Shown here: positions 7,561 through 53,000 of the stretch, one piece after another
How positions within the stretch are numbered: position 1 is the stretch's first letter
How the letters are laid out: every line of letters begins with the position of its first letter
NCBI GenBank assembly: GCA_034231615.1
Contig: CM067311.1
Location: forward strand, 14,851,360-14,915,359
Reading direction: 5' to 3'
Length of the DNA: 64,000 nucleotides
From: Meghimatium bilineatum
Lineage: Eukaryota > Mollusca > Gastropoda > Stylommatophora > Philomycidae
Made by a program: the position numbers and the translations under genes
Notes under the pieces: generated by a model
Databases searched by the model: none
What the model was told of the DNA's origin: nothing
What the model saw: the letters and a program-made list of their open reading frames with translations, nothing else

Positions 7561-7677
7561 GGTTTACTTTTTGCAGTTAGGTCTTATAGTACTGTCAATT
7601 ATCACGTTATATGTCAATAAAGTTGATAAATATTCACCAAAGTCAACAACATTAAAGCTCATTTCTGTCAAGGCACT

Positions 7678-8540
7678 TCACGCCCAGTTCGTTTATTGTG
7701 GGCGTGGAAAGGCCCCATTTCACACTCAGTTCGTTTATTATGTACATGGAAAGACCTCACTTCACGCCCAGTTCGTTTATTATGGACATGGAAAGACCTC
7801 ACTTCACGTCCAGTTCGTTTATTATGGACATGGAAAGACCTCACTTCACGCCCAGTTCGTTTATTATGTACATGGAAAGACCTCACTTCACGCCCAGTTC
7901 GTTTATTATGGACATGGAAAGACCTCACTTCACGCCCAGTTCGTTTATTATGGACATGGAAAGACCTCACTTCACGCCCAGTTCGTTTATTATGGACATG
8001 GAAAGACCTCACTTCACGCCCAGTTCGTTTATTATGGACATGGAAAGACCTCACTTCACGCCCAGTTCGTTTATTATGTACATGGAAAGACCTCACTTCA
8101 CGCCCAGTTCGTTTATTATGGACATGGAAAGACCTCACTTCACGCCCAGTTCGTTTATTATGTACATGGAAAGACCTCACTTCACGCCCAGTTCGTTTAT
8201 TATGGACATGGAAAGACCTCACTTCACGCCCAGTTCGTTTATTATGGACATAGAAATGCCTCAGTTTACGCCCAGTTCGTTTATTATGTACATGGAAAGA
8301 CCTCACTTCACGCCCAGTTCGTTTATTATGTACATGGAAAGACCTCACTTCACGCCCAGTTCGTTTATTATGTACATGGAAAGACCTCACTTCACGCCCA
8401 GTTCGTTTATTATGGACATGGAAAGACCTCACTTCACGCCCAGTTCGTTTATTATGGACATAGAAATGCCTCAGTTTACGCCCAGTTCGTTTATTATGTA
8501 CATGGAAAGACCTCACTTCACGCCCAGTTAGTTTACTTTT
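7678..8540. repeat. 42-bp minisatellite, about 20 copies
   Basis: The unit is cacgcccagttcgtttatta followed by tggacatggaaagacctcactt. Variants alternate tatggacatgg with tatgtacatgg. A distinct variant (catagaaatgcctcagttta) occurs twice, about 210 bp apart, which shows block duplication. Because 42 is a multiple of three and the unit lacks stops in several frames, long open frames arise on both strands (up to 323 aa). They track the repeat exactly and are not taken as genes. Confidence 0.95.
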
Positions 8541-8645
8541 GACATGGAAAGGGACAAAAAAGTTGAAAGTCACAACCATTCTACTCTGAGTAGAGAAGGG
8601 GAGAGGGCGGAGGGGTGGCGGGGTCAGCAGTGTTTTGGATATTCG

Positions 8646-8810
8646 GATTTATTTCTACATTAGTTCTCAAATTCCAGCAGATTCGCAGGATGCAGTCCAG
8701 AAAAGAGAATGCGCTATGTCATGGTTTACAGTTTGGCTACGATATCTGCTCATTTTTGTCTGACACATCCGACTTCAGCATGGCATAGGGATTACTTTGA
8801 CACTGGAATG
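8646..8810 (-). mobile_element. SINE-A partial copy
   Basis: Holds the tail half of SINE-A: tctcaaattccagcagatt, atgtcatggtttacag, gacacatccgacttcagcatgg. The head half is missing and unrelated sequence follows. Confidence 0.75.
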
Positions 8811-8942: not shown

Positions 8943-9234
8943 CGCCCGTGTGTTCCCGGGGCCCGAATGGGAGCAAAGAATAGCAACACTGTTTACCTTC
9001 TACGCATGTCGTAAAAGGCGACTAAGGAGGTTATGGGATGGAGTTGGCTGTCCCATCCCATATAGGGTCAGTGACCCAAAGCCAAGCTGAAGTCGGATGT
9101 GTCAGGCCGAAAGGCGCGGATATCGCAGCAATGCTGTAAACCATGACACAACGCATTCCGCTCTCCGGACTACATCCTGCTAATCTGCAGGAGTTTGAGA
9201 ATGAACGCAGAAGAAGAAGAAGAAGAAGAGGAAG
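8943..9234 (+). mobile_element. SINE-A, full-length copy with 11-bp target duplication
   Basis: Starts at CGCCCGTGTGTT and ends in a long (GAA)n tail after gagtttgagaatgaacgcag. TATCTACATAA occurs immediately before it (8932-8942) and after it (9235-9245). The young-looking tail and intact duplication suggest relatively recent insertion. Confidence 0.9.
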
Positions 9235-14989: not shown

Positions 14990-15545
14990 GAAATTTGTTC
15001 TAGCTCCAATTACCCTTTGAAACAAACATGGTGTGAAAGAATCAACATCTTATTGGCCCAGTAGTTTCCTAGATTAAGACGGGCGTTAGTCTATCAATGA
15101 CACCTACAGTTTCTCTCATTATCACAGATAGCCTGTGGCGCCCTTTGTCTACGCCAAGTCACAAGGACTGATAACTCGTAACTGTCATATGATTTCATTC
15201 CCAAACACATTAAGGCCAGGGATGGAGAAATATCACAACACAACACAACTTTGCTGAAATACAGAGATAATGTGTTTACCCTTGCAGCATGTCTCTCTCT
15301 CTCCCTCTCTCTGTGCCTACTTTGTTAACTCCAAAGAGTAGGTAGCATCAATACATTTGTAACAAGGCAGCTGTGGGTGTTACCGGATAAACAGAGCTGT
15401 ACTTTATCTGTCAGCATATCGTTGCTCCCAAATTTGACCAGCTGCCAACCAAGGCTAAGGGTCTGGTTTGTTCTGCCACACAATTTGGGTTTAGGTTTAA
15501 TTTTCTCATCACACTTAATGCTTATATATTCGTACTTGTGCTCCT
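14990..15545. other. No recognisable feature
   Basis: No open frame of note; a short CT-rich run occurs near 15,293-15,312. Confidence 0.4.
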
Positions 15546-15551
15546 AAGACT

Positions 15552-16592
15552 TTGACACAATGTGGGTTGATAGGTCACCCGAAGACACAATGTGGGTTGA
15601 TAGGACATCCGAAGACACAATGTGCGTTGATAGGACACCCGAAGACACAATGTGGGTTGATAGGACACCCGAAGACACAATGTGGGTTGATAGGACACCC
15701 GAAGACACAATGTGGGTTGATAGGACACCCGAAGACACAATGTGGGTTGATAGGACACCCGAAGACACAATGTGGGTTGATAGGACACCCGAAGACACAA
15801 TGTGGGTTGATAGGACACCCGAAGACACAATGTGGTTTGATAGGACACCCGAAGACACAATGTGGGTTGATAGGACACCCGAAGACACAATATAGGTTGA
15901 TAGGACACCCGAAGACACAATGTGGGTTGATAGGACATCCGAAGACACAATGTGCGTTGATAGGACACCCGAAGACACAATGTGGGTTGATAGGTCACCC
16001 GAAGACACAATGTGGGTTGATAGGTCACCCGAAGACACAATGTGGGTTGATAGGTCACCCGAAGACACAATGTGGGTTGATAGGACACCCGAAGACACAA
16101 TGTGGGTTGATAGGACACCCGAAGACACAATGTGGGTTGATAGGACACCCGAAGACACAATGTGGTTTGCTAGGACACCCGAAGACACAATGTGGGTTGA
16201 TAGGACACCCGAAGACACAATGTGCGTTGATAGGACACCCGAAGACACAATGTGGTTTGCTAGGACACCCGAAGACACAATCTGGGTTGATGGGACACCC
16301 GAAGACACAATGTGGGTTGATAGGACACCCAAAGACACAATGTGGGTTGATATGACACCCGAAGACACAATGTGGTTTGATAGGTCACCCGAAGACACAA
16401 TGTGGGTTGATAGGTCACCCGAAGACACAATGTGGGTTGATAGGACACCCGAAGACACAATGTGGGTTGATAGGACACCCGAAGACACAATGTGGGTTGA
16501 TAGGACACCCAAAGACACAATGTGGGTTGATATGACACCCGAAGACATAATGTGGGTTGATAGGACACCCGAAAACATAATGTGGGTTGCTA
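15552..16592. repeat. 30-bp minisatellite, about 35 copies
   Basis: The unit is acaatgtgggttgataggac followed by acccgaagac. Recurrent variants (tgtgcgttga, ggtcaccc, tgtggtttgc, acccaaag, tatgacaccc) appear in the same order in separate blocks, which shows higher-order duplication. The 30-bp period lacks stops in most frames, so long frames exist on both strands (up to 344 aa). All are products of the array. Confidence 0.97.
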
Positions 16593-16668
16593 GGATAGGT
16601 AGACGCTACCCAATTTACTGCGTTAACAGATACATATTGTTCCGACTATTGTCATATGGTAGTCAGCT

Positions 16669-16957
16669 ATGATCAGCGGTGCATTGATGGGAAAGATCAT
16701 GCATGGGAACATCATACTATGATCAGCGGTGCATTGATGGGAAAGATCATGCATGGGAACATCATACTATGATCAGCGGTGCATTGATGGGAAAGATCAT
16801 GCATGGGAACATCATACTATGATCAACGTTGCATTGATGGGAAAGATCAGGCGTGGGAACATCATACTATGATCAGCGGTGCATTGATGGGAAAGATCAT
16901 GCATGGGAACATCATACTATGATCAGCGGTGCATTGATGGGAAAGATCAGGAATGAT
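16669..16957. repeat. 50-bp minisatellite, 6 copies
   Basis: The unit begins atgatcagcggtgcattgat and continues gggaaagatcatgcatggga then acatcatact. Copy 4 differs by gatcaacgtt and caggcgtggg. Confidence 0.93.
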
Positions 16958-18321: not shown

Positions 18322-18980
18322 TCTTCTTCTTTCGTTCGCTAATAATGTCTATATCTGCAGTGTTGTTTCTTGTATAAATTGGACAGTGTTTTCCATTTCT
18401 TGTTTTGTACCATACAGTTTAATATTCATTGGTGTATCAGAAGGCCAGTATGTGCATCTTAATGTGTCATAGTTTGCATATTCTTGAAGGATATGTTCTG
18501 AAGTCTGGTTGGCTTGTCCACAATTACACTTTGCTGTTGTGTCAATTTTAAATTCTGTATACATATGGCTGTTTAGTCTATTGTGTTCAATTCTGAGTCG
18601 AAATATGATGACCTGTTCTTGTCTGTTAAGTAGGTGGTAGTCGTCCCGTGGAGGTAAGTTAGGCTTTCGTTGTACCTTTATCATGGATTTCTTTTGGTGA
18701 TAGCTGACTGGTACATCTGGTTGCTGCATGTTAGCACCTTCCTTGGCGAGTTGATCAGCTCTCTCATTTCCAGCTATTCCACAGTGTGATGGAATCCATT
18801 GCAGTATAACTCTACACCTATTTTGTACTATGGACAATACCTCTTTTAACTCTGAAAGTTTATTGGATTGTAGTGTCTCTAGTACTGACCTTGCATCTGT
18901 ATGTATTACAATAGGATCTGAGGTCCTGTCCAATTTTAACAGTTTCTCTGCAGCTGTACAAATAGATTTGACTTCAGAGT
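18322..18980 (-). mobile_element. LINE with RNase H domain, 5'-truncated, nested insertion
   Basis: The open frame 18,349-18,933 (194 aa, minus strand) is the RNase H domain and C-terminus of a non-LTR retrotransposon. IHTDARSVLETLQ carries a catalytic Asp, LQWIPSHCGIAGNERADQLA is the HxxxxGNExAD motif, and a CNCGQ...SEHIL knuckle follows. This arrangement is typical of I/Jockey-group LINEs. After the stop come about 15 bases and then GCGAACGAAAGAAGAAGAAGAA, its 3' tail. It sits inside another LINE, whose two halves resume at 18,321 and 18,981. CCTATTCTTCT flanks it at 18,311-18,321 and 18,981-18,991, but the short copy at 17,686 carries the same 11 bases, so this may be shared sequence rather than a true target duplication. 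Confidence 0.88.
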
Positions 18981-18991
18981 CCTATTCTTCT

Positions 18992-24310: not shown

Positions 24311-24316
24311 CGTGTC
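24311..24316. repeat. Target-site duplication, left (CGTGTC)
   Basis: Directly abuts the left end of the palindromic element and is identical to 37,785-37,790. Confidence 0.85.
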
Positions 24317-27300
24317 AGTAGTTATATAGGGATGACTTGATGCGTAGTGCTCACCAATGCTCACCATTTAGATGGCTCAAAGAAGAAAGTATTAGTGAGC
24401 TGCTCACCATTGCTCACCATTGCTCACCATATGTGCCCGAATGTGCTAATATAGCTCATATAACAATATACTCGGTCTGACGAGGTCGTGCAGGTCGTGC
24501 AGAGGTCGTGGAGAGGTCGTGCAGGGCGTGCAAAGGTCGTGCAGCGGTCGTGCAGGGCATGCAAAGGTCGTGCCATGTTACTTATCTGTACAATATGACG
24601 AGGTCGTGGGCGTGCAAAGGTCGTGCAGGTCGTCCAAAGGTCGTGCCATGTTACTTATCTGTACAATATGACGAGGTCGTGCAAAGGTCGTGGCGAATGT
24701 GCCCGAATGTGCTAATATAGCTCATATAACAATATACTTGATCTGGAGAGGTCGTCCAAAGGGCGTGTCGAATGTGTCGAGTGTGCTTTATTATAGCCCA
24801 TATAGCATTATACTCGACCTGGAGAGGTGGTGTAAATGGGCGTCATGTTACGCCATGTTACATAACCGGATACTACTTAACTCATATAACAATATACTGG
24901 ATACGGAGAGGTCGTGCAAAGGTGGCACCATGCCCCGTGCTGTTACATAACGGGCTTTAATATAGCCCAAATAACAATAAACGTGTCATACAAAAGTCGG
25001 GTAAAGGTCGTCACCTGGTACATATCCGGCTAATATATACCTCATATAACAATAATGAGATGTGAATTGTCGAGTGTGCGGCTGAATGTACTGAGTGTGC
25101 CCGCACATCCCATATGATGGCAGTCGAAACCGGCCGAACCGACCGGTGGCGAGGTGTGATCCGGAGCGATACCCGGTCGCTGTGGCCGAATCTGGTCAAA
25201 TTGTGTATCTAATGATGCGAATGTGTGTGGGGTGGGTCTGGTATTTGGTAGTGGAATTGTCCCTTTATTTGTTTTGCTGATACAAGGAGCTAGGCTCGTG
25301 ATAAAGACTTCCACTGCGCCTTCCAGTGATTGAGGTCTACATAACCCCATCTCTCCCCCTTGTGTCGGTGGGACTGCATTTGGTGAGTATTAACATGTTA
25401 TAACTGTATCTGATTAGTGGGTATGTTGTGGTTTTTCTACTGAAATTTATTTATGACACTATCTTTTATATAAAACGATCCAATTTTAAACCACATGTGA
25501 AAGATCATGCAAAGTTCAGATTGTAAAACTGCCAAATGCAATATAATTACAGTCATGATAAAGAGCATGTCCACTGCCACTTCCAGTGAATGAGGTTAGC
25601 ATAACCCCACCTACTCCCACTTATGCCGGTGGGGGTGATTTTGCTGGGTATTAACATTAACATGACCTTATTTGTTTAGTGGGTATGTTTGGGATTTCCG
25701 CTTACATTCAAGTGGTTCTCAAATTGTAAAATACTGACCATAACAATGTAAACCCCCGAGACATATAGACACCACAAAAACTAATATTCTGCAAACATAC
25801 TTCTGTGCCTTTGACCAACGGTTCTCATTATTTCATACTTATATTCAAGTGGTTCTCAAATTGTAAAATCTTGACCATGCAATGTAAAACCCTGACATAT
25901 AGACACAACAAAAGCTATATTCTCCAAACATTCTTCTGTGCCTTTGGCCAATGATTATCATTATTTTATGCTTATATTCAAGTGGTTATCACATTGTGAA
26001 AACCTGACCATGAGAATGTAAAACTCGTAACATTGACACCACAAAAGAAAATATTCTGCAAACATTATTCTGTGCCTTTGGCCAATAGTTCTCATTATTT
26101 TATGGTTATGTTAAAGTGGTTCTCACATTGGCCAATCCTGACCATACAAATGTAAAACCCATGTCATATATACACCACAAAAGCTAATATTCTCCAAACA
26201 GTCTTCTCTCATGCCACGCTTCAGCCATGGTCGCTTGATGGTCTCTGTATGCTCTTTAACTATGTTCAACCATATTATCATTATGGTCTCACTAACTTCT
26301 AACAGGGTCTACTTTGGGCCAATATATTCTTAGTATATTTTCGCTAGAGTCTTAAACTAGGTTCTCATGTGCAGCTTCAATTATGTTCTCTCTGTGTTTT
26401 GAGTTATTTTTCTCTACTAAAAGGTTTCTTATTAACATATTTCATTAGCGCAAACGGCGTGTTTATCAGATGTCGAAATTAACAAGTCACACGAAAACAC
26501 ATTTCAGCCCTTTCTCACTAACAACATAGTACATTTGAGAAGTTTTATTTGTATAAACTTAACATTTATTGGTGTTTTTTCACAACTAGATAAGCCACTT
26601 ATACGGATTTTCGATGTTTTATTAGTTGTCTAAATTGTCATACGAAAATACATTTCAGTATTTTTGCAGTAACAACATGACAAATTTTATCGTGTTTGTA
26701 TTTTGTGTGACTGTACAATGTACCATTTTTCCACAATTAACCAATCTGCTTTTAGTGATTTTCATTATGTTTTATCATTTGTCTAAATTATCATACCACA
26801 CGAAATATATTTCAGTACTTTTACACAAACATTATAACACATTTTTTTTATTTGTGTAAGTACATCATTTACAATTTTTTCACAAGTAACCAACCCACTT
26901 TTACTATGTTATCATACTAAAAGAACCCATTTTTCAGTACGTGGCCACTAACAACATAACGCATTTTGCCATGTTTTTATTTGTGGGCCTGCGGCATTTA
27001 TCAATTTTAGTGATGTTCGTTATGTTTTATCAGTAGTTATCTAAATTAGATACCATACAAACCCATATTTCAGTACTTTTGCACAAACATCATAACACAT
27101 TTACCATGTTTTATTTATTCGCTTTCAACAGTTATTACTATTTTTGCAATTACACAAGCCGAATTGGGTGATTTTCGTTATGTTTTATCAGATGTCTAAG
27201 TTATGATACCATACGAAGCTATTGTTCCTTACGTTGCCATTAACAACATAACAACTTTTGACATGTTTTTATCTGTTGGACAATCACTTATCACTTTTTC

Positions 27301-29290
27301 ACAACTAGGCAAGTTGGTGGTAGCGCCTTTCAGTGTGATCAGACAGTATTTATCTCTTTTCTATACTTACAGTTGCGCATTTCACGACATTTAGATACAA
27401 AACACGGTTCCAATGAACTTATTTTCATATGGTAAACTGCATGTTTTAGCTGTTTTCAAAATTATTATCCCATCCGAAATAACATGCCAACACTTCTCAC
27501 TAACCTCATACACCATTTTGACAAACTTCTGTATATGAAACAGCATCGTTGATCACTACTCATAGACAATACCAACACATTTCACACATAGACCCTGTCA
27601 ATATCCCGTACTGATAGTCCGTGCTTATCCCCCGTGCTTATACCGCGTTCTGATATCCCGTGCTGATATCACCTGTCAAAATCCACTGCTGATATCCGCT
27701 GTCAAGATCCGCGGCTATCGATTGTCAAAATCCGCTGCTATCATCGGGCAAGAACCGCTGTTGATATCTGCTGTCGAAATTCACTACTGATATCCCCTGT
27801 CAAAATCCGCTGGTGATATCCGTTGTCAAAATCCGCTGCTGATATCCGCTGTCAAGAGCCGCTACTGATAGCTCTAGTCAAGAACTGATGCTGACATCCC
27901 GTGTTGACAATCGACGTGTTGCATCCCTTTTCACAACTAGGCAAACGGCTTATAACACTTTTTGCTATAATCGAAAGCATTAGGCGTTGATTTTCTAAAC
28001 ATACAAGGTAAATGTTTCTATTTGTATGTACCAACGTCTCATATTACATATTTCCATATGACAAATTACCTGTTTAGCCCTTTTAACAGCTAGGCAAATC
28101 GCTTTTAACACATTTACATATGATAAACGGCATGTTTTTTCACTTGTCACAGCCGCTTTTAACGCATTACCATTTGACAAACGGTATGTTTTATCAGTTA
28201 TCACACCATATGAAAACCTATTACAAGGCGTTTACACTAAAAACACAACACATTTATCACTTTTCACAGCTAGACATGCTGCTTTTCGTAGTTTTCACAA
28301 TGAGTAAAGTCACTATTTCACCAGTGTCTAGACTTACAAGGACAAATTACATTGGTTTTATGTACCAACATGTTTAATATTACATATAGCCAAATGACAG
28401 AAGTCATGTTTATCACTTTTCACAACTAGGCAAAGCCCTTTTAACACATTTTGCTATAATCAAAGACATTGGGTGGGGCCTTTCTAGACTTACAATGCAA
28501 ATTTCCTTATTTGTATGTACCAACAAGGTTCATATTACGTATTTCCATAGGACAACTTTCATGTTTTATCACTGTTCACAACTAGGCAAACCGCTTTTAA
28601 CAATTTTTGGTATTACCAAAAGCTATGTGTGGTGGTTCTCTAGACTTACACTGTAAATTTTCCTATTTTTATGCACCAACCGGTTTCATATTGCATATTT
28701 CCAAACGACAAAGTTCATGTTTTATCACTTTTCACAGCTAGCCAAAACGATTTTTAAATTCTTTTCATATGACAAACGACATGTTTTATTAGTTTTCTAA
28801 ATTATCAGGTTATATGAAACCACATTACAATACGTTTACACTAAAAAACATAACGCATTTAAGTACTTTTCACAGCTAGACACATCACGTTTCGAAGTTT
28901 TCGCAATGAGCAAAGACATTATTTTGCTCGTTGCTAGACTTACAAAGGCAAATTACCATACTTTTATGTACCAACAAGGTTCATATTATATATGTCCATA
29001 TGACAAGCTTCAGGTTTATCGCTTTTCACAATTAGGCAAACCGCGTTTCGCAAACCCCTAGCTATAACCCGGGTGATATCACATGACATTAGCCAAGGCC
29101 GATAGCCCCTGGTGATACCCAGGACACACCTACCAACTGCCTACGGGTAATGTTAGTGCCTATAAGAGTGAAGTGTATTATAGGGTTTGTGTGCCGCCTT
29201 CAACATTTAACCGCTACCAGTAATAATCTGCCGAACTAGCTAAACTCACCTGCACCGCATAAACAATAGCTAAACATATAGGGTAGCTTG

Positions 29291-29486
29291 TTATGGGGTG
29301 GTACCTGAGCAATACGTAGTGAAAATTTTATTAATGTGTAACCTATACATAAAGGATGAAAAAAGGCTAACCTTCGTCATTGTCTTAAACATGCGCACCT
29401 CTGGGAATGACATCTCAGCACGGGCTATAAATACGAAAGCATGTGATTCTGATACTAACAAACGAGCAAACACCTAGTTTTATATA
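29291..29486 (-). promoter_or_regulatory. Candidate TATA promoter and short frame in left arm
   Basis: The minus strand shows TATATAAAA (29,478-29,486) followed by a frame containing MSFPEVRMFKTMTKVSLFSS and ending at 29,291. AAGGTTAGC inside it could be a splice donor, so this may be a first exon. I do not recognise the product. The same sequence is mirrored at 32,615-32,810. Confidence 0.3.
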
Positions 29487-29889
29487 CGAACCAGCTACAC
29501 CAATCGACTGTATTGCACTTTTAAAGCACAACCGAATAGGCAATACAGGTTTGGTACTGTGCACACACTCGGAGTAACCCATTCATCCCATTGGGTGATG
29601 TGTGTATATTTGTATTACCAAACATTTAAAAAAGCACACGTTATCAGCACTTACTAATAGTTACTACCGGAACTTTGTCATTTTGAAGAATGACTTATGT
29701 AAGTAATGTTGTTAATATCTGAATAGGTTGTTTGTTATTCTAACAGGATTTTCGATCACAGTCTTGTTTTTGTCTCTTCTTCAGACAGGCGTTAACGGGC
29801 ACATTCTCTACCTTTTCTATGATATTTTGATGTTAAATTTAATGTCTGACATGTGTGAAATTCTATAGGGTCTTGGTTGTTGGTCCGTT

Positions 29890-30078
29890 TTGGTAGTTGC
29901 CACCATGTGGGCGTGGAAACAAGTTGGTGTAAATGTGAATACATTTGTGTATTTTTTTGGTGTGTATAGATACACTAACATCCCGGTGATATATTGGGGT
30001 CTTATTTATTACTATTGTTGTGGTCGTTGTTTATGTATATTGTTTGAGTTGTGTATGTATAGCCTGAATATGAGTTAG
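29890..30078 (+). CDS. Small hydrophobic frame upstream of the zinc-finger gene (62 aa), doubtful
   Basis: ATG to TAG, rich in Tyr, Val, Ile and Cys, with one probable membrane-spanning stretch (NIPVIYWGLIYYYC). It stops 8 bp before the zinc-finger frame. It could be a real small protein, an upstream ORF or intron sequence. The mirrored copy is at 32,023-32,211 (minus strand). Confidence 0.25.
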   Translation: MVVATMWAWKQVGVNVNTFVYFFGVYRYTNIPVIYWGLIYYYCCGRCLCILFELCMYSLNMS

Positions 30079-30086
30079 GGCTAACT

Positions 30087-30800
30087 ATGTTAGGTATCTG
30101 CTTGGGAATTGGATTATTTACGCAGTCCATCTATTCTCCACAGACCAAGACGTCCACCAAAACCTACCGGTGTGTTCAATGCTTGAAACCATTTAGTCGC
30201 CTTTACACACTGCAAAGACATAAACAAGATCTTCACCTTAAAAAAAGACATAACTGTAATTTGTGTGTTAATGTTTACACAGACGCTTCAACATTAAGAC
30301 AGCACAGGCAAAAGTGTCATACGCCCCAATTAGTAACAACGGATGGAACTTTTAACCCTAGCGAGGGGCATCATAGTAATTTAACACCAACCAAGAACAT
30401 GATACTAGTTGATCCCCAGGTGGTCGACGCCTTGCTGTATAAAACAGTCTATAAACCACCTGATTCTTTAACTGATTCTATGGGTGAGTTGGACCAAGAA
30501 ATGCGGGCGGTTTTAGTTCGTGGTGATTTAACCAATCACGAAAAATCTAGACTATACCAAAAAACATTACAACAGTATTTGAATCGACTCAGTCAATACA
30601 AAAACACACCTCTGAAGCTATTAGAGAGCACGCAGTGTTCGGTACCAAGTGCCTCAATACAGAAAGATGAAGAACCCACTGAGAAAATTCCAGAGAAAGT
30701 CGAAGTGATGCCTAAGACGCCACGGCTTAAACATAGGCGGGCATCTAAAAGAACAAAAAGTAAAACAATGGCCAAAAGTCTGATTTGGGATAAGTGGTAG
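30087..30800 (+). CDS. Two-finger C2H2 protein of the palindromic element, left copy
   Basis: This is the only convincing coding sequence of the element: 237 aa. Residues about 28-51 form one C2H2 finger (C-x2-C-x12-H-x4-H, starting YRCVQCLKPF) and residues about 55-78 a second (CNLC...H...H). A middle domain (about residues 110-175) contains LDQEMRAVL, LTNHEKSRLYQKTLQQYL and is predicted helical. The C-terminus is very basic (RLKHRRASKRTKSKT). DNA binding is a reasonable inference from the fingers; I cannot name the middle domain. My impression that such LDxEM...EK..LY...LQ.YL segments recur in Polinton-type elements is unverified. The first 18 residues are hydrophobic and may be intronic, with acceptors possible at ttacgcag and tctccacag. 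AATAAA at 30,889 could serve as poly(A) signal. It converges with its identical twin across the centre. Confidence 0.7.
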   Translation: MLGICLGIGLFTQSIYSPQTKTSTKTYRCVQCLKPFSRLYTLQRHKQDLHLKKRHNCNLCVNVYTDASTLRQHRQKCHTPQLVTTDGTFNPSEGHHSNLTPTKNMILVDPQVVDALLYKTVYKPPDSLTDSMGELDQEMRAVLVRGDLTNHEKSRLYQKTLQQYLNRLSQYKNTPLKLLESTQCSVPSASIQKDEEPTEKIPEKVEVMPKTPRLKHRRASKRTKSKTMAKSLIWDKW

Positions 30801-30934
30801 AAAAAATTGTAGAAGGCAACGCACCATTACACAACAAATTGTCAACTGTTTAAACAAATATGATACTTATATAACATTAATAAACAAAATAAAATAATAA
30901 AATCACAACGATGTTGTTGTATTTTATCTTTATT

Positions 30935-30962
30935 TGTGTATGTGTGTGTGTGTGTGTGTGAC
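30935..30962. repeat. (TG)n tract beside the palindrome centre
   Basis: gtgtatgtgtgtgtgtgtgt continuing to tgac; mirrored as (CA)n at 31,139-31,166. It lies 3' of both zinc-finger genes. Confidence 0.9.
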
Positions 30963-31026
30963 TATATGTAAAATAAAGATTGCTCATAAACATAAAAAAC
31001 TAGGTCGATTTCCCTCCTAGCACGGG

Positions 31027-31074
31027 CCCGTGTAGGTCCAAGATGATAAAACAGGATCTCGTGTTACACGGGAT
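31027..31074. repeat. 48-bp central spacer with an offset internal inverted repeat
   Basis: The arms end in CACGGG and resume in CCCGTG. Inside the spacer CCCGTGTA (31,027-31,034) pairs with TACACGGG (31,065-31,072) on an axis shifted by one base from the main axis, leaving two unpaired bases (AT, 31,073-31,074) and a 30-base loop. The centre is thus an imperfect hairpin, not an exact fold-back. Confidence 0.9.
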
Positions 31075-31300
31075 CCCGTGCTAGGAGGGAAATCGACCTA
31101 GTTTTTTATGTTTATGAGCAATCTTTATTTTACATATAGTCACACACACACACACACACATACACAAATAAAGATAAAATACAACAACATCGTTGTGATT
31201 TTATTATTTTATTTTGTTTATTAATGTTATATAAGTATCATATTTGTTTAAACAGTTGACAATTTGTTGTGTAATGGTGCGTTGCCTTCTACAATTTTTT

Positions 31301-32014
31301 CTACCACTTATCCCAAATCAGACTTTTGGCCATTGTTTTACTTTTTGTTCTTTTAGATGCCCGCCTATGTTTAAGCCGTGGCGTCTTAGGCATCACTTCG
31401 ACTTTCTCTGGAATTTTCTCAGTGGGTTCTTCATCTTTCTGTATTGAGGCACTTGGTACCGAACACTGCGTGCTCTCTAATAGCTTCAGAGGTGTGTTTT
31501 TGTATTGACTGAGTCGATTCAAATACTGTTGTAATGTTTTTTGGTATAGTCTAGATTTTTCGTGATTGGTTAAATCACCACGAACTAAAACCGCCCGCAT
31601 TTCTTGGTCCAACTCACCCATAGAATCAGTTAAAGAATCAGGTGGTTTATAGACTGTTTTATACAGCAAGGCGTCGACCACCTGGGGATCAACTAGTATC
31701 ATGTTCTTGGTTGGTGTTAAATTACTATGATGCCCCTCGCTAGGGTTAAAAGTTCCATCCGTTGTTACTAATTGGGGCGTATGACACTTTTGCCTGTGCT
31801 GTCTTAATGTTGAAGCGTCTGTGTAAACATTAACACACAAATTACAGTTATGTCTTTTTTTAAGGTGAAGATCTTGTTTATGTCTTTGCAGTGTGTAAAG
31901 GCGACTAAATGGTTTCAAGCATTGAACACACCGGTAGGTTTTGGTGGACGTCTTGGTCTGTGGAGAATAGATGGACTGCGTAAATAATCCAATTCCCAAG
32001 CAGATACCTAACAT
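31301..32014 (-). CDS. Two-finger C2H2 protein of the palindromic element, right copy
   Basis: Mirror image of the gene at 30,087-30,800 and identical in all 237 residues. The two stop codons are about 500 bp apart, tail to tail. Identity at protein level with no frameshift in either copy suggests a young duplication or gene conversion between arms. Confidence 0.7.
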   Translation of the reverse strand: MLGICLGIGLFTQSIYSPQTKTSTKTYRCVQCLKPFSRLYTLQRHKQDLHLKKRHNCNLCVNVYTDASTLRQHRQKCHTPQLVTTDGTFNPSEGHHSNLTPTKNMILVDPQVVDALLYKTVYKPPDSLTDSMGELDQEMRAVLVRGDLTNHEKSRLYQKTLQQYLNRLSQYKNTPLKLLESTQCSVPSASIQKDEEPTEKIPEKVEVMPKTPRLKHRRASKRTKSKTMAKSLIWDKW

Positions 32015-32022
32015 AGTTAGCC

Positions 32023-32211
32023 CTAACTCATATTCAGGCTATACATACACAACTCAAACAATATACATAAACAACGACCACAACAATAGTAATAAATAAG
32101 ACCCCAATATATCACCGGGATGTTAGTGTATCTATACACACCAAAAAAATACACAAATGTATTCACATTTACACCAACTTGTTTCCACGCCCACATGGTG
32201 GCAACTACCAA
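32023..32211 (-). CDS. Small hydrophobic frame, right-arm copy (62 aa), doubtful
   Basis: Mirror of 29,890-30,078 and identical in translation. The same doubts apply. Confidence 0.25.
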   Translation of the reverse strand: MVVATMWAWKQVGVNVNTFVYFFGVYRYTNIPVIYWGLIYYYCCGRCLCILFELCMYSLNMS

Positions 32212-35200
32212 AACGGACCAACAACCAAGACCCTATAGAATTTCACACATGTCAGACATTAAATTTAACATCAAAATATCATAGAAAAGGTAGAGAATGT
32301 GCCCGTTAACGCCTGTCTGAAGAAGAGACAAAAACAAGACTGTGATCGAAAATCCTGTTAGAATAACAAACAACCTATTCAGATATTAACAACATTACTT
32401 ACATAAGTCATTCTTCAAAATGACAAAGTTCCGGTAGTAACTATTAGTAAGTGCTGATAACGTGTGCTTTTTTAAATGTTTGGTAATACAAATATACACA
32501 CATCACCCAATGGGATGAATGGGTTACTCCGAGTGTGTGCACAGTACCAAACCTGTATTGCCTATTCGGTTGTGCTTTAAAAGTGCAATACAGTCGATTG
32601 GTGTAGCTGGTTCGTATATAAAACTAGGTGTTTGCTCGTTTGTTAGTATCAGAATCACATGCTTTCGTATTTATAGCCCGTGCTGAGATGTCATTCCCAG
32701 AGGTGCGCATGTTTAAGACAATGACGAAGGTTAGCCTTTTTTCATCCTTTATGTATAGGTTACACATTAATAAAATTTTCACTACGTATTGCTCAGGTAC
32801 CACCCCATAACAAGCTACCCTATATGTTTAGCTATTGTTTATGCGGTGCAGGTGAGTTTAGCTAGTTCGGCAGATTATTACTGGTAGCGGTTAAATGTTG
32901 AAGGCGGCACACAAACCCTATAATACACTTCACTCTTATAGGCACTAACATTACCCGTAGGCAGTTGGTAGGTGTGTCCTGGGTATCACCAGGGGCTATC
33001 GGCCTTGGCTAATGTCATGTGATATCACCCGGGTTATAGCTAGGGGTTTGCGAAACGCGGTTTGCCTAATTGTGAAAAGCGATAAACCTGAAGCTTGTCA
33101 TATGGACATATATAATATGAACCTTGTTGGTACATAAAAGTATGGTAATTTGCCTTTGTAAGTCTAGCAACGAGCAAAATAATGTCTTTGCTCATTGCGA
33201 AAACTTCGAAACGTGATGTGTCTAGCTGTGAAAAGTACTTAAATGCGTTATGTTTTTTAGTGTAAACGTATTGTAATGTGGTTTCATATAACCTGATAAT
33301 TTAGAAAACTAATAAAACATGTCGTTTGTCATATGAAAAGAATTTAAAAATCGTTTTGGCTAGCTGTGAAAAGTGATAAAACATGAACTTTGTCGTTTGG
33401 AAATATGCAATATGAAACCGGTTGGTGCATAAAAATAGGAAAATTTACAGTGTAAGTCTAGAGAACCACCACACATAGCTTTTGGTAATACCAAAAATTG
33501 TTAAAAGCGGTTTGCCTAGTTGTGAACAGTGATAAAACATGAAAGTTGTCCTATGGAAATACGTAATATGAACCTTGTTGGTACATACAAATAAGGAAAT
33601 TTGCATTGTAAGTCTAGAAAGGCCCCACCCAATGTCTTTGATTATAGCAAAATGTGTTAAAAGGGCTTTGCCTAGTTGTGAAAAGTGATAAACATGACTT
33701 CTGTCATTTGGCTATATGTAATATTAAACATGTTGGTACATAAAACCAATGTAATTTGTCCTTGTAAGTCTAGACACTGGTGAAATAGTGACTTTACTCA
33801 TTGTGAAAACTACGAAAAGCAGCATGTCTAGCTGTGAAAAGTGATAAATGTGTTGTGTTTTTAGTGTAAACGCCTTGTAATAGGTTTTCATATGGTGTGA
33901 TAACTGATAAAACATACCGTTTGTCAAATGGTAATGCGTTAAAAGCGGCTGTGACAAGTGAAAAAACATGCCGTTTATCATATGTAAATGTGTTAAAAGC
34001 GATTTGCCTAGCTGTTAAAAGGGCTAAACAGGTAATTTGTCATATGGAAATATGTAATATGAGACGTTGGTACATACAAATAGAAACATTTACCTTGTAT
34101 GTTTAGAAAATCAACGCCTAATGCTTTCGATTATAGCAAAAAGTGTTATAAGCCGTTTGCCTAGTTGTGAAAAGGGATGCAACACGTCGATTGTCAACAC
34201 GGGATGTCAGCATCAGTTCTTGACTAGAGCTATCAGTAGCGGCTCTTGACAGCGGATATCAGCAGCGGATTTTGACAACGGATATCACCAGCGGATTTTG
34301 ACAGGGGATATCAGTAGTGAATTTCGACAGCAGATATCAACAGCGGTTCTTGCCCGATGATAGCAGCGGATTTTGACAATCGATAGCCGCGGATCTTGAC
34401 AGCGGATATCAGCAGTGGATTTTGACAGGTGATATCAGCACGGGATATCAGAACGCGGTATAAGCACGGGGGATAAGCACGGACTATCAGTACGGGATAT
34501 TGACAGGGTCTATGTGTGAAATGTGTTGGTATTGTCTATGAGTAGTGATCAACGATGCTGTTTCATATACAGAAGTTTGTCAAAATGGTGTATGAGGTTA
34601 GTGAGAAGTGTTGGCATGTTATTTCGGATGGGATAATAATTTTGAAAACAGCTAAAACATGCAGTTTACCATATGAAAATAAGTTCATTGGAACCGTGTT
34701 TTGTATCTAAATGTCGTGAAATGCGCAACTGTAAGTATAGAAAAGAGATAAATACTGTCTGATCACACTGAAAGGCGCTACCACCAACTTGCCTAGTTGT
34801 GAAAAAGTGATAAGTGATTGTCCAACAGATAAAAACATGTCAAAAGTTGTTATGTTGTTAATGGCAACGTAAGGAACAATAGCTTCGTATGGTATCATAA
34901 CTTAGACATCTGATAAAACATAACGAAAATCACCCAATTCGGCTTGTGTAATTGCAAAAATAGTAATAACTGTTGAAAGCGAATAAATAAAACATGGTAA
35001 ATGTGTTATGATGTTTGTGCAAAAGTACTGAAATATGGGTTTGTATGGTATCTAATTTAGATAACTACTGATAAAACATAACGAACATCACTAAAATTGA
35101 TAAATGCCGCAGGCCCACAAATAAAAACATGGCAAAATGCGTTATGTTGTTAGTGGCCACGTACTGAAAAATGGGTTCTTTTAGTATGATAACATAGTAA

Positions 35201-37784
35201 AAGTGGGTTGGTTACTTGTGAAAAAATTGTAAATGATGTACTTACACAAATAAAAAAAATGTGTTATAATGTTTGTGTAAAAGTACTGAAATATATTTCG
35301 TGTGGTATGATAATTTAGACAAATGATAAAACATAATGAAAATCACTAAAAGCAGATTGGTTAATTGTGGAAAAATGGTACATTGTACAGTCACACAAAA
35401 TACAAACACGATAAAATTTGTCATGTTGTTACTGCAAAAATACTGAAATGTATTTTCGTATGACAATTTAGACAACTAATAAAACATCGAAAATCCGTAT
35501 AAGTGGCTTATCTAGTTGTGAAAAAACACCAATAAATGTTAAGTTTATACAAATAAAACTTCTCAAATGTACTATGTTGTTAGTGAGAAAGGGCTGAAAT
35601 GTGTTTTCGTGTGACTTGTTAATTTCGACATCTGATAAACACGCCGTTTGCGCTAATGAAATATGTTAATAAGAAACCTTTTAGTAGAGAAAAATAACTC
35701 AAAACACAGAGAGAACATAATTGAAGCTGCACATGAGAACCTAGTTTAAGACTCTAGCGAAAATATACTAAGAATATATTGGCCCAAAGTAGACCCTGTT
35801 AGAAGTTAGTGAGACCATAATGATAATATGGTTGAACATAGTTAAAGAGCATACAGAGACCATCAAGCGACCATGGCTGAAGCGTGGCATGAGAGAAGAC
35901 TGTTTGGAGAATATTAGCTTTTGTGGTGTATATATGACATGGGTTTTACATTTGTATGGTCAGGATTGGCCAATGTGAGAACCACTTTAACATAACCATA
36001 AAATAATGAGAACTATTGGCCAAAGGCACAGAATAATGTTTGCAGAATATTTTCTTTTGTGGTGTCAATGTTACGAGTTTTACATTCTCATGGTCAGGTT
36101 TTCACAATGTGATAACCACTTGAATATAAGCATAAAATAATGATAATCATTGGCCAAAGGCACAGAAGAATGTTTGGAGAATATAGCTTTTGTTGTGTCT
36201 ATATGTCAGGGTTTTACATTGCATGGTCAAGATTTTACAATTTGAGAACCACTTGAATATAAGTATGAAATAATGAGAACCGTTGGTCAAAGGCACAGAA
36301 GTATGTTTGCAGAATATTAGTTTTTGTGGTGTCTATATGTCTCGGGGGTTTACATTGTTATGGTCAGTATTTTACAATTTGAGAACCACTTGAATGTAAG
36401 CGGAAATCCCAAACATACCCACTAAACAAATAAGGTCATGTTAATGTTAATACCCAGCAAAATCACCCCCACCGGCATAAGTGGGAGTAGGTGGGGTTAT
36501 GCTAACCTCATTCACTGGAAGTGGCAGTGGACATGCTCTTTATCATGACTGTAATTATATTGCATTTGGCAGTTTTACAATCTGAACTTTGCGTGATCTT
36601 TCACATGTGGTTTAAAATTGGATCGTTTTATATAAAAGATAGTGTCATAAATAAATTTCAGTAGAAAAACCACAACATACCCACTAATCAGATACAGTTA
36701 TAACATGTTAATACTCACCAAATGCAGTCCCACCGACACAAGGGGGAGAGATGGGGTTATGTAGACCTCAATCACTGGAAGGCGCAGTGGAAGTCTTTAT
36801 CACGAGCCTAGCTCCTTGTATCAGCAAAACAAATAAAGGGACAATTCCACTACCAAATACCAGACCCACCCCACACACATTCGCATCATTAGATACACAA
36901 TTTGACCAGATTCGGCCACAGCGACCGGGTATCGCTCCGGATCACACCTCGCCACCGGTCGGTTCGGCCGGTTTCGACTGCCATCATATGGGATGTGCGG
37001 GCACACTCAGTACATTCAGCCGCACACTCGACAATTCACATCTCATTATTGTTATATGAGGTATATATTAGCCGGATATGTACCAGGTGACGACCTTTAC
37101 CCGACTTTTGTATGACACGTTTATTGTTATTTGGGCTATATTAAAGCCCGTTATGTAACAGCACGGGGCATGGTGCCACCTTTGCACGACCTCTCCGTAT
37201 CCAGTATATTGTTATATGAGTTAAGTAGTATCCGGTTATGTAACATGGCGTAACATGACGCCCATTTACACCACCTCTCCAGGTCGAGTATAATGCTATA
37301 TGGGCTATAATAAAGCACACTCGACACATTCGACACGCCCTTTGGACGACCTCTCCAGATCAAGTATATTGTTATATGAGCTATATTAGCACATTCGGGC
37401 ACATTCGCCACGACCTTTGCACGACCTCGTCATATTGTACAGATAAGTAACATGGCACGACCTTTGGACGACCTGCACGACCTTTGCACGCCCACGACCT
37501 CGTCATATTGTACAGATAAGTAACATGGCACGACCTTTGCATGCCCTGCACGACCGCTGCACGACCTTTGCACGCCCTGCACGACCTCTCCACGACCTCT
37601 GCACGACCTGCACGACCTCGTCAGACCGAGTATATTGTTATATGAGCTATATTAGCACATTCGGGCACATATGGTGAGCAATGGTGAGCAATGGTGAGCA
37701 GCTCACTAATACTTTCTTCTTTGAGCCATCTAAATGGTGAGCATTGGTGAGCACTACGCATCAAGTCATCCCTATATAACTACT

Positions 37785-37790
37785 CGTGTC
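37785..37790. repeat. Target-site duplication, right (CGTGTC)
   Basis: Directly abuts the right end of the palindromic element. The next base on each side differs, so the duplication is exactly 6 bp. Confidence 0.85.
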
Positions 37791-37980
37791 GATAGCGTTG
37801 CGAAATGTTTTTCCACAACTCTTTGTTCTGCCTCGGCAGGAGAATTATAGCTTCGTTTAGAGGGACGGGGTACATATGGGAGTAACCTGAGTACAATGAT
37901 GTAATTCATCTACGCCTTTACAACTTTTTTTCTCTTTAACATGTCCTTCTCCAGCATAGTCATTTTCACCCATTCCAAAT

Positions 37981-38263
37981 CTTCTTCTTCTTCTGCGTTC
38001 ATTCTCAAACTCCTGCAGATTAGCAGGATGTAGTCCAGAGAAAGGAATGCGTTGTGTCATGGTTTACAGCATTGCTGCGATATCCGCGCCTTTCGGCCTG
38101 ACACATCCGACTTCAGCATGGCTTTGGGTCACTGACCCTATATGGGATGGGACAGCCAACTCCATCCCATAACCTCCTTAGTCGTCTTTTACGACATGCG
38201 TGGAAGGTAAACAGTGTTGCTATTCTTTGCTACCATTCGGGCCCCGGGAACACACGGGCGGCC
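37981..38263 (-). mobile_element. SINE-A, full-length copy with 12-bp target duplication
   Basis: Runs from the (TTC)n tail complement to cccgggaacacacgggcg. CCCATTCCAAAT flanks it at 37,969-37,980 and 38,264-38,275. It is close to the family consensus and lies 196 bp outside the palindromic element. Confidence 0.92.
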
Positions 38264-50000: not shown

Positions 50001-53000
50001 GCCGCATAGTTCAGTTACATGCAGCATCTTCTATGTATTATAGTTTGACAATGACTTTCAGTAAGGTCTTTAATGAATCCTTGTAGCGTTTATTTTGGCC
50101 ACCTTGAGAGCTCATGCATTTTTTGCATCTCACCATATACGAGTATTTTAAGAGATGTGATCTAGCACACATAACTACATAACCTGCTAATGTGTATGTG
50201 ATGGCATCAGAATAGTATTTTCAAACATCATCATGTTACTGTTACCTTGGTTTTTCTGCCCTTCTCTTTCAACGCATATTTTGTTTCTGTAGATTTGCTT
50301 GTCTTGCCTATTTCTTCATTGAATGTCTCTTGATAGACATCTATAAAGATCTTTTATTTTTCCAGTTGCAACATACGGCTGTGAATCTATTGTCTATCCC
50401 CGGTTATGATGGTAAGAATATACACACATGCCATTTAGGGGTGTTGATTGGGAGCTTTAGCTGTTTATCCAAGGCCAAATGTGCCACATTGGCTGTGTTG
50501 AATCTATATTTTTTCAGTGTTGTCTTGATGTTATCTATCCATCTTGTTCTAGGTCTTCCTCTGATCTTGTATCCGGATCTTCTTGTGTTATATGTTCTTG
50601 TTGGTAGTTAGGTATGGTTCATTCTTGTGTCCAAACCATTTTTTTGGTTTCTCTGTGTATTCTGTGCATGGTCTTACACCGATAATTCTGATTTCATTTA
50701 TAATTTTGTCTATTTTGATCATTCTTGCTGCTGTTCTTAGGCAAGAGAAAAGAGATATATGGCTGTGAAACATAGACTCTTTAAGTAAAACAGCGGCATA
50801 GATCACCTTTGAGATGAAATGCCACTGAAAGATGCTTTAGAATATCAAGGAAGGAAAAAAAAGAGAAATTCAGATATTATAAACACATTGAAGATGCCAG
50901 AGTGTTGGTTATTAAATACAATAGCAAAAAAAACACACCGGTTTGGTCATATAAAAACTGTGTAGAAATATAAATAATGTAGGACAGAGCATCTAGGTGG
51001 AGGAGAAAGGGCAGACCAATAAGACGATGACTGACAACATTAAGGATAACATAAATACGTCGTTGGAAAATGCAAGTCACATGGACCAAGACAGGGGTTC
51101 AGGGAGTTCATTGGGAAGACAACATTCGGGAGAGAATACGCCACAGGACGAGAATAGTATCAATGAGTGATGTTAACTCCATCAAGAGCAGTGGTATTTA
51201 GAATGTTAAGATAAAGAAAATTGTCTATCATGTTATGATTTGATATATTATAGTAATTTCAGTTCTTAAGCTTGTCGTTGAGACATCATATATTACCGGT
51301 ACTTCATTGTGACAGGAGATATTGACAGCTGCAGATGTTACAGTCTAGCATAAAAATTGAGGCTGCTTTATAGCTAACCAACAGATTTAATGTAAGAAGT
51401 GGTTAGCGGTTATTTTAGCTGGAATTCTTATGTTTTTGGAGTAGTAAAACACAGGTTATTTATTGTATTGAATGTGATAAAAATAATGTGTCATTTTAAA
51501 CTTCACCAATCTGAAACCAAATTCTTAATTAGGTTAATATTTTGGTTTCAATTTCTGCCAGTTGCCATCATTAAGCTGTGACTTCGGTGACCTCATCTCC
51601 TCCAGCGACATAGACCAGTTACTCATGCAAAACTTTGATGGCTTAGCCCTCCCATCAGAGCCCTACATGCAGATGGACTTAGGGGCACCAGACAGTGAAT
51701 CCAATTTACCATTACAAACCGCCTGTGAACTTACATCATTCCTTTTTGAACATACACCACGTCCCAGAGATTTAAATCTTATGTTCTTGGAGAAAGATCT
51801 TTCCCTTCCACCCCAGTCTTCATACAACTCCATTCTTCCTGCTAACAATTTTCAAGCTGTGACTCCCCCACACTCAGGTGGTTTGACCCCTACAAACTTG
51901 TCTCGTTCAACTTCTCCGGCATGGAGTGAGAGCAGTGGCAGTATGAGCACCAGCAGCGTACATGGAGGTGTTCTCAAGGAAAGTCCTACATCCAAATGCA
52001 GCAATCCACTTCCAAGACACAAGAGGCCATCCCATAAACGTGCTGAGATCAAACGACGAGATAAGATCAAGGTAAATATATAGCTACCCAAGACACTTAA
52101 AGCAAGTTGATTACAAAGGTCACATTTTTTTGGGTATCATTCAATACATAGCTATTTGTAGATATTAGTTACTTGTGTACATCAAAGTTCCTAAATTCAT
52201 AAATGGTGATTCCTTCTCATTGTTTGAGAATACTATATCTATACACCTTATAGCACAGGTTCTAAACAAACTTCTTTGGTCTTGTTTAATACAACTTTCT
52301 TCCATCTTGTTTAATACAACTTTCTTTCATCTTGTGCTGTCTTTAGCTGTTGCTACCCAGATTTTATGGCTGCCTCTAATTATTCCTTCCAGTTATTTTT
52401 TTTGAGTTCCCTTTTTTACAACGCATTCCCTTAGTCTTCTTTATATGTCATATTCATCATCATTGCTATTTTCTTAGTTCTTCTGCACTGGAGTTTATGT
52501 TCTGTGCATGAAGTCCTCATTGGCAACCAGTATACTGAGTCTGTTAAAATTCAAGTGCTTATATTATGCACCATTCTCACACTTCTACTGTTTAGCAGGA
52601 CATAGTCCGGAGAATGGAATGAGTGGTTCATGGTTTACAGCTTGACTGATATCCTCTGATTATGGTCTGGCATATCTGACTCTAGCATTCTCTTAATATC
52701 ACTTTGAGCTGTAGTATGAGGCAGCCAACTCACCCCGAAACCTCCTTAGTTGCCTCATTTAACATACAAGGCAGGTCACAGTGTTGCTATATTTTTTGTT
52801 CCCTTTCAGGTCCTGGCAGCGCACAGACAAATGTATCATTAATTTCTAGAAATTGGTGCTATCTAGTGAGATCTTGGATCTATCATCAATGTTTTTTCTT
52901 TTGTTGTTCCTTATCCTGCAGTCGATTGTTTTAACCACGTGTGAATTGTTTTAAAACAAAATAGAATTTACTGAGATTAATATGAGGTGTGTATGTATTG

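Follow-up and report, generated by a model that had tools for sequence, protein, structure and literature searches.

A 64,000-nt stretch of the genome of the gastropod Meghimatium bilineatum (assembly GCA_034231615.1, contig CM067311.1, positions 14,851,360 to 14,915,359 of the forward strand; this whole stretch is called the window below) contains a 13,468-bp element, at window positions 24317-37784, that is one near-perfect palindrome. It is likely that this element is a snapback satellite, i.e. a non-autonomous, fully palindromic derivative of a Polinton/Maverick that is mobilised in trans and replicated by protein priming, with a hairpin stage that matches the two arms to each other. Four observations carry this reading: the palindromy of many copies, their (AGT)2 ends, their 6-bp target duplications and a terminal repeat that they have in common with a coding Polinton.

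The window element is made of two 6,710-bp arms around a 48-nt centre. The arms pair at 6,709 of 6,710 positions, with a single mismatch (T at 25508 versus G at 36593), and chance pairing is excluded by their length. The hexamer CGTGTC stands immediately outside both ends, and the sequence farther out differs between the two sides. A giant palindrome inserted between identical hexamers is what the original prediction, made from the letters of the window, had claimed, and the comparison of the arms confirms it; the span it gave (24311-37790) does hold the palindrome, but includes both flanking hexamers, which are not part of the element.

The terminal 301 bp of the window element was searched against the genome (1.61 Gb in 32 contigs). 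Among the 40 of 438 candidates that were scored are ends of numerous relatives, which frequently form inverted pairs ∼13-15 kb apart. Ten relatives, mostly top-scoring ones, had both arms compared as separate pieces, which makes 11 copies with the window copy. All 11 are palindromic over their arms (in C23a the outer ∼0.6 kb of repeats is unlike between the arms), and AGTAGTTAT begins all of the 22 ends. A perfect 6-bp duplication flanks nine of the 11 copies; five of the six bases agree in C23c and there is no duplication in C21a, and these two are the copies with the most diverged arms. Duplications are also perfect in four out of four further pairs read at their ends only, and in C20a (GACGCC) and C9 (CATATT) after their far ends were located (flanks read by eye). 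Altogether, 15 of the 17 end pairs read have perfect 6-bp duplications, one has five of six bases and one has none. In C21b and C1c, one end reads AGTAGTAGT and the other AGTAGT, and the 6-bp duplication is exact. Further loci (18 out of 18) end in AGTAGT, though the pattern used required AGTAGT and a matching duplication backs only ten of them; the other eight are single-ended, so that their AGTAGT end comes from the pattern and the partner end is unconfirmed.

The sequence AGTAGTTATATAGGGATGA occurs 337 times in the genome with at most two mismatches, versus 37 times for the reversed control. Among 100 of these places that were listed, 89 are exact ends, and 76 of the 89 form 38 inverted pairs spanning 4.0-19.6 kb (12-16 kb for 27 of the 38 pairs). 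Midpoints of 241 bp were sampled for 20 pairs (the other 18 are nine pairs viewed otherwise, one coding copy and eight pairs left out). Nine of the 20 midpoints are palindromic (L084, L085, L089, L090, L095, L099, L100, L101 and L102), and four others (L086, L091, L093 and L096) match an inner arm without having both arms in view; for L091 the right arm falls beyond the 241 bases sampled. Palindromy is also seen at the centres of C19, C21b, C3c and C1c (4/4). Five of the end pairs with exact family ends are as short as 4.0-7.9 kb, and the sampled midpoint of one of them (L083, 7.9 kb) matches nothing read.

The 11 copies fall into two groups. Group A (nine copies, including the window copy) has a gene encoding a 237-aa protein, and group B (C3a and C23c) has a different inner part of ∼1.8 kb with an open reading frame (ORF) of 230 aa. 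Outside the inner part, the match of C23c to the window arm is 96% over 3.9 kb (lower in the first 0.4 kb), and C3a matches the window arm in rearranged blocks with additional repeats. Searches with the two genes, in which the best 40 of 504 candidates (group A) and the best 40 of 144 (group B) were scored, gave 41 and 40 matches, respectively. Each search produced 18 pairs, and all 36 are inverted around a centre. Five matches (group A) and four (group B) are unpaired, one of which lies in a known palindrome, C21a. In addition, two group-B palindromes are found ∼13.06 kb apart at L103 (C20:14354995-14371103), with an element end lacking its first A adjoining arm-interior sequence between them; they look nested or tandem.

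The loop core at the centre is similar within each group, in either orientation (∼37 nt in group A and 35 nt in group B; loops of single copies were scored at 24-58 nt). The loops of L090 and L099 are different again (40 and 41 nt), so there are four turnarounds with loop cores of 35-41 nt. Five copies with a shifted axis (C3a, C23a, C2, C7 and C21b) have computed loops of 158-280 nt, figures that we take as over-estimates. Since the turnarounds differ, snapback would have occurred more than once: the palindromes probably have several origins, with groups A and B subsequently multiplying in palindromic form.

An artefact of assembly, either a fold-back read or a collapsed inverted duplicate, could mimic such an element, and the palindromes were judged from the assembly. 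But they stand at many independent sites with unlike flanks and intact 6-bp duplications, and the arm differences are specific to each copy. Many such elements at unrelated sites make an assembly fold-back very unlikely, to the point that we give this explanation almost no credence. Instead, the other palindromic copies in unrelated flanks, with their 6-bp duplications, bear out the view of the original prediction that the window element is a real insertion of DNA that was already palindromic.

Not all elements with the family ends are palindromic. One such non-palindromic end pair, C12:28295861-28315483 (19.6 kb), is a coding Polinton. It has genes for an rve integrase, an ATPase of the adenovirus IVa2 type, a protease of the adenovirus type and a PC4 domain, as well as a C2H2 frame and a frame of 906 aa containing DUF1280; Pfam recognised no capsid domain in the pieces submitted to it. 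Its polB gene was identified through a PF03175-positive frame elsewhere in the genome (31-42% match, best E-value 7e-61), and one piece of it searched against solved structures found nothing. Both ends of this Polinton resemble those of the palindromes: identity is 94-96% over the terminal 111-116 bp of the window and C3a copies, and 90% over 104 bp of C23c. TATATA flanks it on both sides, but lies within a TA repeat. The parts of the palindromes that match this Polinton are the terminal repeat, the unit of a 134-bp repeat and pieces of genes. The integrase stretch of this Polinton has 230 candidate places in the genome. The 40 that were scored are 97-100% identical, and seven of them are located 1.9-2.2 kb inward of a family end among the 100 listed. 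The (AGT)2 ends, the 6-bp duplications and the presence in the genome of a coding Polinton that has this terminal repeat uphold the Polinton/Maverick-type integration that the original prediction had proposed. The search of the genome that it had suggested found further copies with common ends and (mostly) 6-bp duplications, but palindromy does not extend to every element with the same ends.

The same evidence bears on whether the element is a cut-and-paste foldback transposon of another superfamily (Galileo/P, Mutator-like elements or hAT) whose terminal repeats have grown to full length. Galileo elements reach 9,021 bp; their terminal inverted repeats (TIRs) then measure 4,246 and 4,680 bp, and tandem repeats are found internally (in the parts of PMC4168063 available). 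The window arms contain tandem repeats too. However, Galileo duplications are 7 bp long according to the same parts of PMC4168063, versus 6 bp here, and the (AGT)2 ends and the coding Polinton with the same terminal repeat oppose a foldback superfamily. The only full-length relative with the same ends that was read encodes an rve integrase, and not a P-type transposase. Given the shared terminal repeat, this explanation is largely refuted, and we hold it to be quite improbable.

Two other loci have paired integrase copies. At L105 (C23:68764335-68776387) there is a further palindromic centre (91% over 409 bp) midway between two inverted integrase copies; the centre holds a piece matching the start of the ATPase region of the coding Polinton, pointing outward. 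L105 is perhaps a palindrome with an integrase in both arms. At L104 (C25:77852325-77862791), two inverted integrase copies are ∼10 kb apart and the midpoint is not palindromic.

The palindromes themselves carry little coding sequence. Among stop-to-stop frames of at least 70 aa in the window arm, one of 245 aa is the gene, one of 115 aa has no Pfam match, and all others are shorter than 100 aa. No polymerase (PolB) match and no rve integrase match was found in the two longest arm ORFs given to Pfam (frames under 100 aa were left out), and capsid, ATPase and protease genes were not recognised in these two frames either. Three arms compared with 19 loci around PolB matches had no blastn similarity to them. 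Since no PolB was found in the palindrome, we classify it as a non-autonomous derivative and not as a full Polinton/Maverick member.

The 237-aa ORF is full-length in at least one arm of each of the nine group-A copies. It has two C2H2-like zinc fingers (Pfam score of 23.0 bits, slightly below the cut-off of 25.2), which share a loose likeness (26% over 80 aa) with the C2H2 frame opening the polB region of the coding Polinton. Residues 102-237 are 42% identical to the product of the Polinton gene between the ATPase and integrase genes (E-value 2e-27). The 230-aa ORF of group B is 41% identical to the stretch preceding polB in the coding Polinton (E-value 1e-38). Judging by these similarities, the single gene of the palindrome is partly Polinton-derived, which, like the family and its non-autonomous nature, goes beyond the original prediction. 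The protein database has one relative (P0001, 68% identity over 86% of the query), a scan of viral contigs found none, and a motif of the gene, sought in the flanks of PolB loci, has one match, in a protease-like ORF, among the matches listed. The ratio of nonsynonymous to synonymous differences (pN/pS) is 0.52 for the group-A ORF. For the group-B ORF it is 0.22-0.51 between C3a and C23c, on 6-8 changes, and 1.54 between the two arms of C23c; this ORF differs by 1.15% versus 2.6% in its flanks (Fisher's test, p = 0.038). These values lend weak support to selection on both ORFs.

The gene content also speaks to the idea of a self-standing virus or replicon with a hairpin genome (parvovirus- or bidnavirus-like), of which a dimer integrates and which the zinc-finger protein replicates. 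The arm is about as long as the genome of a small single-stranded DNA virus, and the constancy of the 237-aa ORF in group A would fit. But Pfam gives only zinc-finger-type and other matches to this ORF, all below the cut-offs, its C-terminal part is that of a Polinton gene, and the 237-aa gene is absent from both group-B copies (among ORFs of at least 110 aa), which have the same ends nonetheless. An independent virus of this kind is therefore extremely improbable.

How the arms differ within and between copies bears on the mechanism. Outside the centre, arm-arm divergence in the 11 copies ranges from 0.015% (the window copy) to 1.04% (C23c), and the window copy is 0.24% different from the nearest other copy. 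In a tree of the group-A arms, the two arms of the same copy are sisters in eight out of nine cases (three of these with weak support, 0.745-0.860). When ungapped columns are considered, the nine group-A copies have 79 sites at which both arms of a single copy differ from all other arms and 89 at which one arm alone does so, and no arm difference is common to two copies. If palindromes were copied whole together with their arm differences, shared differences would be expected; their number being zero, the arms of each copy trace to one template.

Gene conversion in the chromosome is the most serious alternative at this point: the palindromes would be copied whole, and conversion would later keep their arms alike, with no need of a hairpin intermediate. 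The palindromes of sex chromosomes have arms kept alike in this way, long inverted arms are good conversion partners, and conversion would likewise leave no shared arm differences. On the other hand, the arm mismatches of C21a (55) and C23c (72) are distributed along the arm, where conversion is not erasing them, and the duplications of the same two copies have decayed as well, which fits arms that were identical at insertion and then drifted. We consider conversion unlikely as the main cause.

From these observations we infer mobilisation in trans by a helper, a hairpin and the following order of events. While a linear Polinton replicates by protein-primed strand displacement, its growing strand, or the displaced one, would fold back over a loop of ∼35-41 nt and copy itself, giving a molecule with the same end twice. 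Such a palindromic molecule would have two good origins (AGTAGT ends, with jump-back initiation), and PolB and the terminal protein for its replication would come from coding relatives. A displaced palindrome strand would form a hairpin in which the two arms make up one duplex; there, arm mismatches would be removed, or one arm alone would be transmitted. The integrase of coding Polintons would then insert the linear product through a 6-bp staggered joint, after which ordinary mutation would drive the arms apart, so that the arm-arm difference would date a copy. An extra AGT at one end next to an intact duplication is expected if ends are re-made by jumping back over a trinucleotide repeat.

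Several observations weigh against the snapback reading. Seven of the 20 sampled end pairs have no palindromy shown (three match the coding Polinton and four match nothing read). Within-copy and nearest-copy distances are close for C2, C16, C7 and C3b; the arms of C2 are not sisters in the group-A tree (support 0.736), nor are those of C23c in a tree of all 22 arms, whose alignment brings together inner parts that are not homologous. Matched arms could also result from gene conversion after insertion. As for the coding Polinton, its polB gene is split over several frames, and the pieces have no useful Pfam match even at an E-value of 10. Little in the one coding copy read corresponds to the outer ∼4.8 kb that the two groups have in common, and no coding Polinton with an end collinear to a whole palindrome arm was found in that reading. 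The group-B gene piece is inverted relative to its orientation in the coding Polinton, and at L105 the ATPase-region piece points outward while the flanking integrase copies point inward.

For group B, a plain one-step snapback of a right end was considered and rejected, since a single snapback of an end with the gene piece in the orientation seen in the coding Polinton does not yield the inverted piece. The misfits may call for a second round of snapback, or for a parent with another arrangement.

A bolder version of the snapback reading, which we put forward tentatively and rate at somewhat below even chances, is that palindromy is the replicating state: a hairpin half-genome whose arm is copied round the loop in each cycle, which would restore a perfect palindrome every time. 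Satellites of this kind would have evolved repeatedly from Polintons, keeping or recruiting a gene (for the zinc-finger protein or a polymerase-side fragment) to compete or interfere with the helper. If this is true, snapback genomes of a protein-primed DNA virus would here, for the first time as far as the literature searched goes, form a multicopy family that is inherited. The replication of Polintons has been inferred mainly from their gene content, and the palindromes would be a genetic footprint of it: end-length shifts by a single AGT unit speak for protein-primed jump-back initiation, and a hairpin intermediate is suggested by arms that are alike within a copy, with no differences common between copies. 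Snapback genomes, usually viewed as defective viral DNA, could then give rise to a large, inherited family of repeats. This animal genome retains near-perfect 13-kb palindromes with loops of ∼40 nt, despite the instability expected of them. The two 237-aa genes of the window palindrome converge on its centre, and it might be speculated that hairpin RNA templates from group-A palindromes feed small-RNA silencing of Polintons.

The features of the window element are collected in the table below. Elsewhere in the window, a 281-bp repeat is found at 8943-9223 and, 98% complementary, at 37980-38260, the latter ∼190 bp beyond the right end of the element. Tandem repeat arrays with several open frames are found at 7556-8648 (unit about HAQFVYYGHGKTSL) and at 15519-16672 (on both strands, unit about DRTPEDTMWV). 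By eye, 18349-18981 (minus strand) looks like an RNase H-like retrotransposon frame, and 51538-52083 (plus strand) may be an exon of a basic helix-loop-helix (Mondo/MLX-like) gene.

Table. Parts of the palindromic element and its flanking duplications (window positions)
Feature	Position	Strand	Remark
Target site duplication CGTGTC, left	24311..24316	.	
Left arm of the palindrome, 6,710 bp, starts AGTAGTTATATAGGG	24317..31026	+	
Terminal stretch common to coding Polinton C12:28295861-28315483	24317..24432	+	116 bp at 94.0% (its left end), 111 bp at 94.6% (its right end)
Subterminal tandem repeats, units of 10-76 bp	24401..24843	+	
134-bp tandem repeats	25700..26207	+	Units match the coding Polinton at 76-78%, 1.58-1.77 kb from its right end
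237-aa ORF, two C2H2-like zinc fingers and a C-terminal part 42% identical to a Polinton gene	30087..30800	+	
Unpaired centre (turnaround), 48 nt	31027..31074	.	Core recurs in other group-A copies, in either orientation
Right arm (inverted left arm)	31075..37784	-	One mismatch, at 36593
Mirror copy of the 237-aa ORF	31301..32014	-	
Target site duplication CGTGTC, right	37785..37790	.	

Known systems share some of these features, and the comparisons below draw on the available parts of the papers cited. Mavericks have 5'-(AGT)2//(ACT)2-3' ends and 6-bp duplications, and the TIRs of intact vertebrate Mavericks are 46-1,447 bp long (PMC8097293), which makes arms of 6,710 bp unusual, as had been suspected for TIRs occupying a whole element. 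The palindromes resemble Polintons/Mavericks in their ends, duplications and similar length, in the terminal repeat common with a coding copy and in a gene that is partly Polinton-derived; they differ in that the TIR spans the whole element, the gene content is symmetric and no integrase or polymerase gene is recognised. No earlier description of a palindromic Polinton was found in the portions consulted of the open-licence literature in PubMed Central (PMC), preprints and subscription papers being outside the search. The nearest long-armed element found there is the 9,021-bp Galileo copy mentioned above (PMC4168063). Galileo/Foldback elements share very long inverted arms, which make up nearly the whole element in that copy, and internal tandem repeats, but they have a P-superfamily transposase and 7-bp duplications, and the arms of the longest copy are unequal, with insertions and deletions (PMC4168063). 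In adenovirus, the ends are renewed through a jump back across a trinucleotide repeat, which is 3'-GTAGTA where the palindromes have 5'-AGTAGT (PMC4974454); end length varying by one AGT unit is a feature of the palindrome family, as judged from integrated copies only. Adeno-associated virus forms snapback genomes from either moiety of its genome (PMC8235507). The palindromes are self-complementary lengthwise with the same terminus at both ends, as a snapback genome is, and would likewise come from one moiety of a parent and need functions supplied by others for replication. Adeno-associated virus, however, is a parvovirus with Rep proteins that is not protein-primed, and its snapback genomes are described there from particles of a virus population, whereas the palindromes are an inherited multicopy family.

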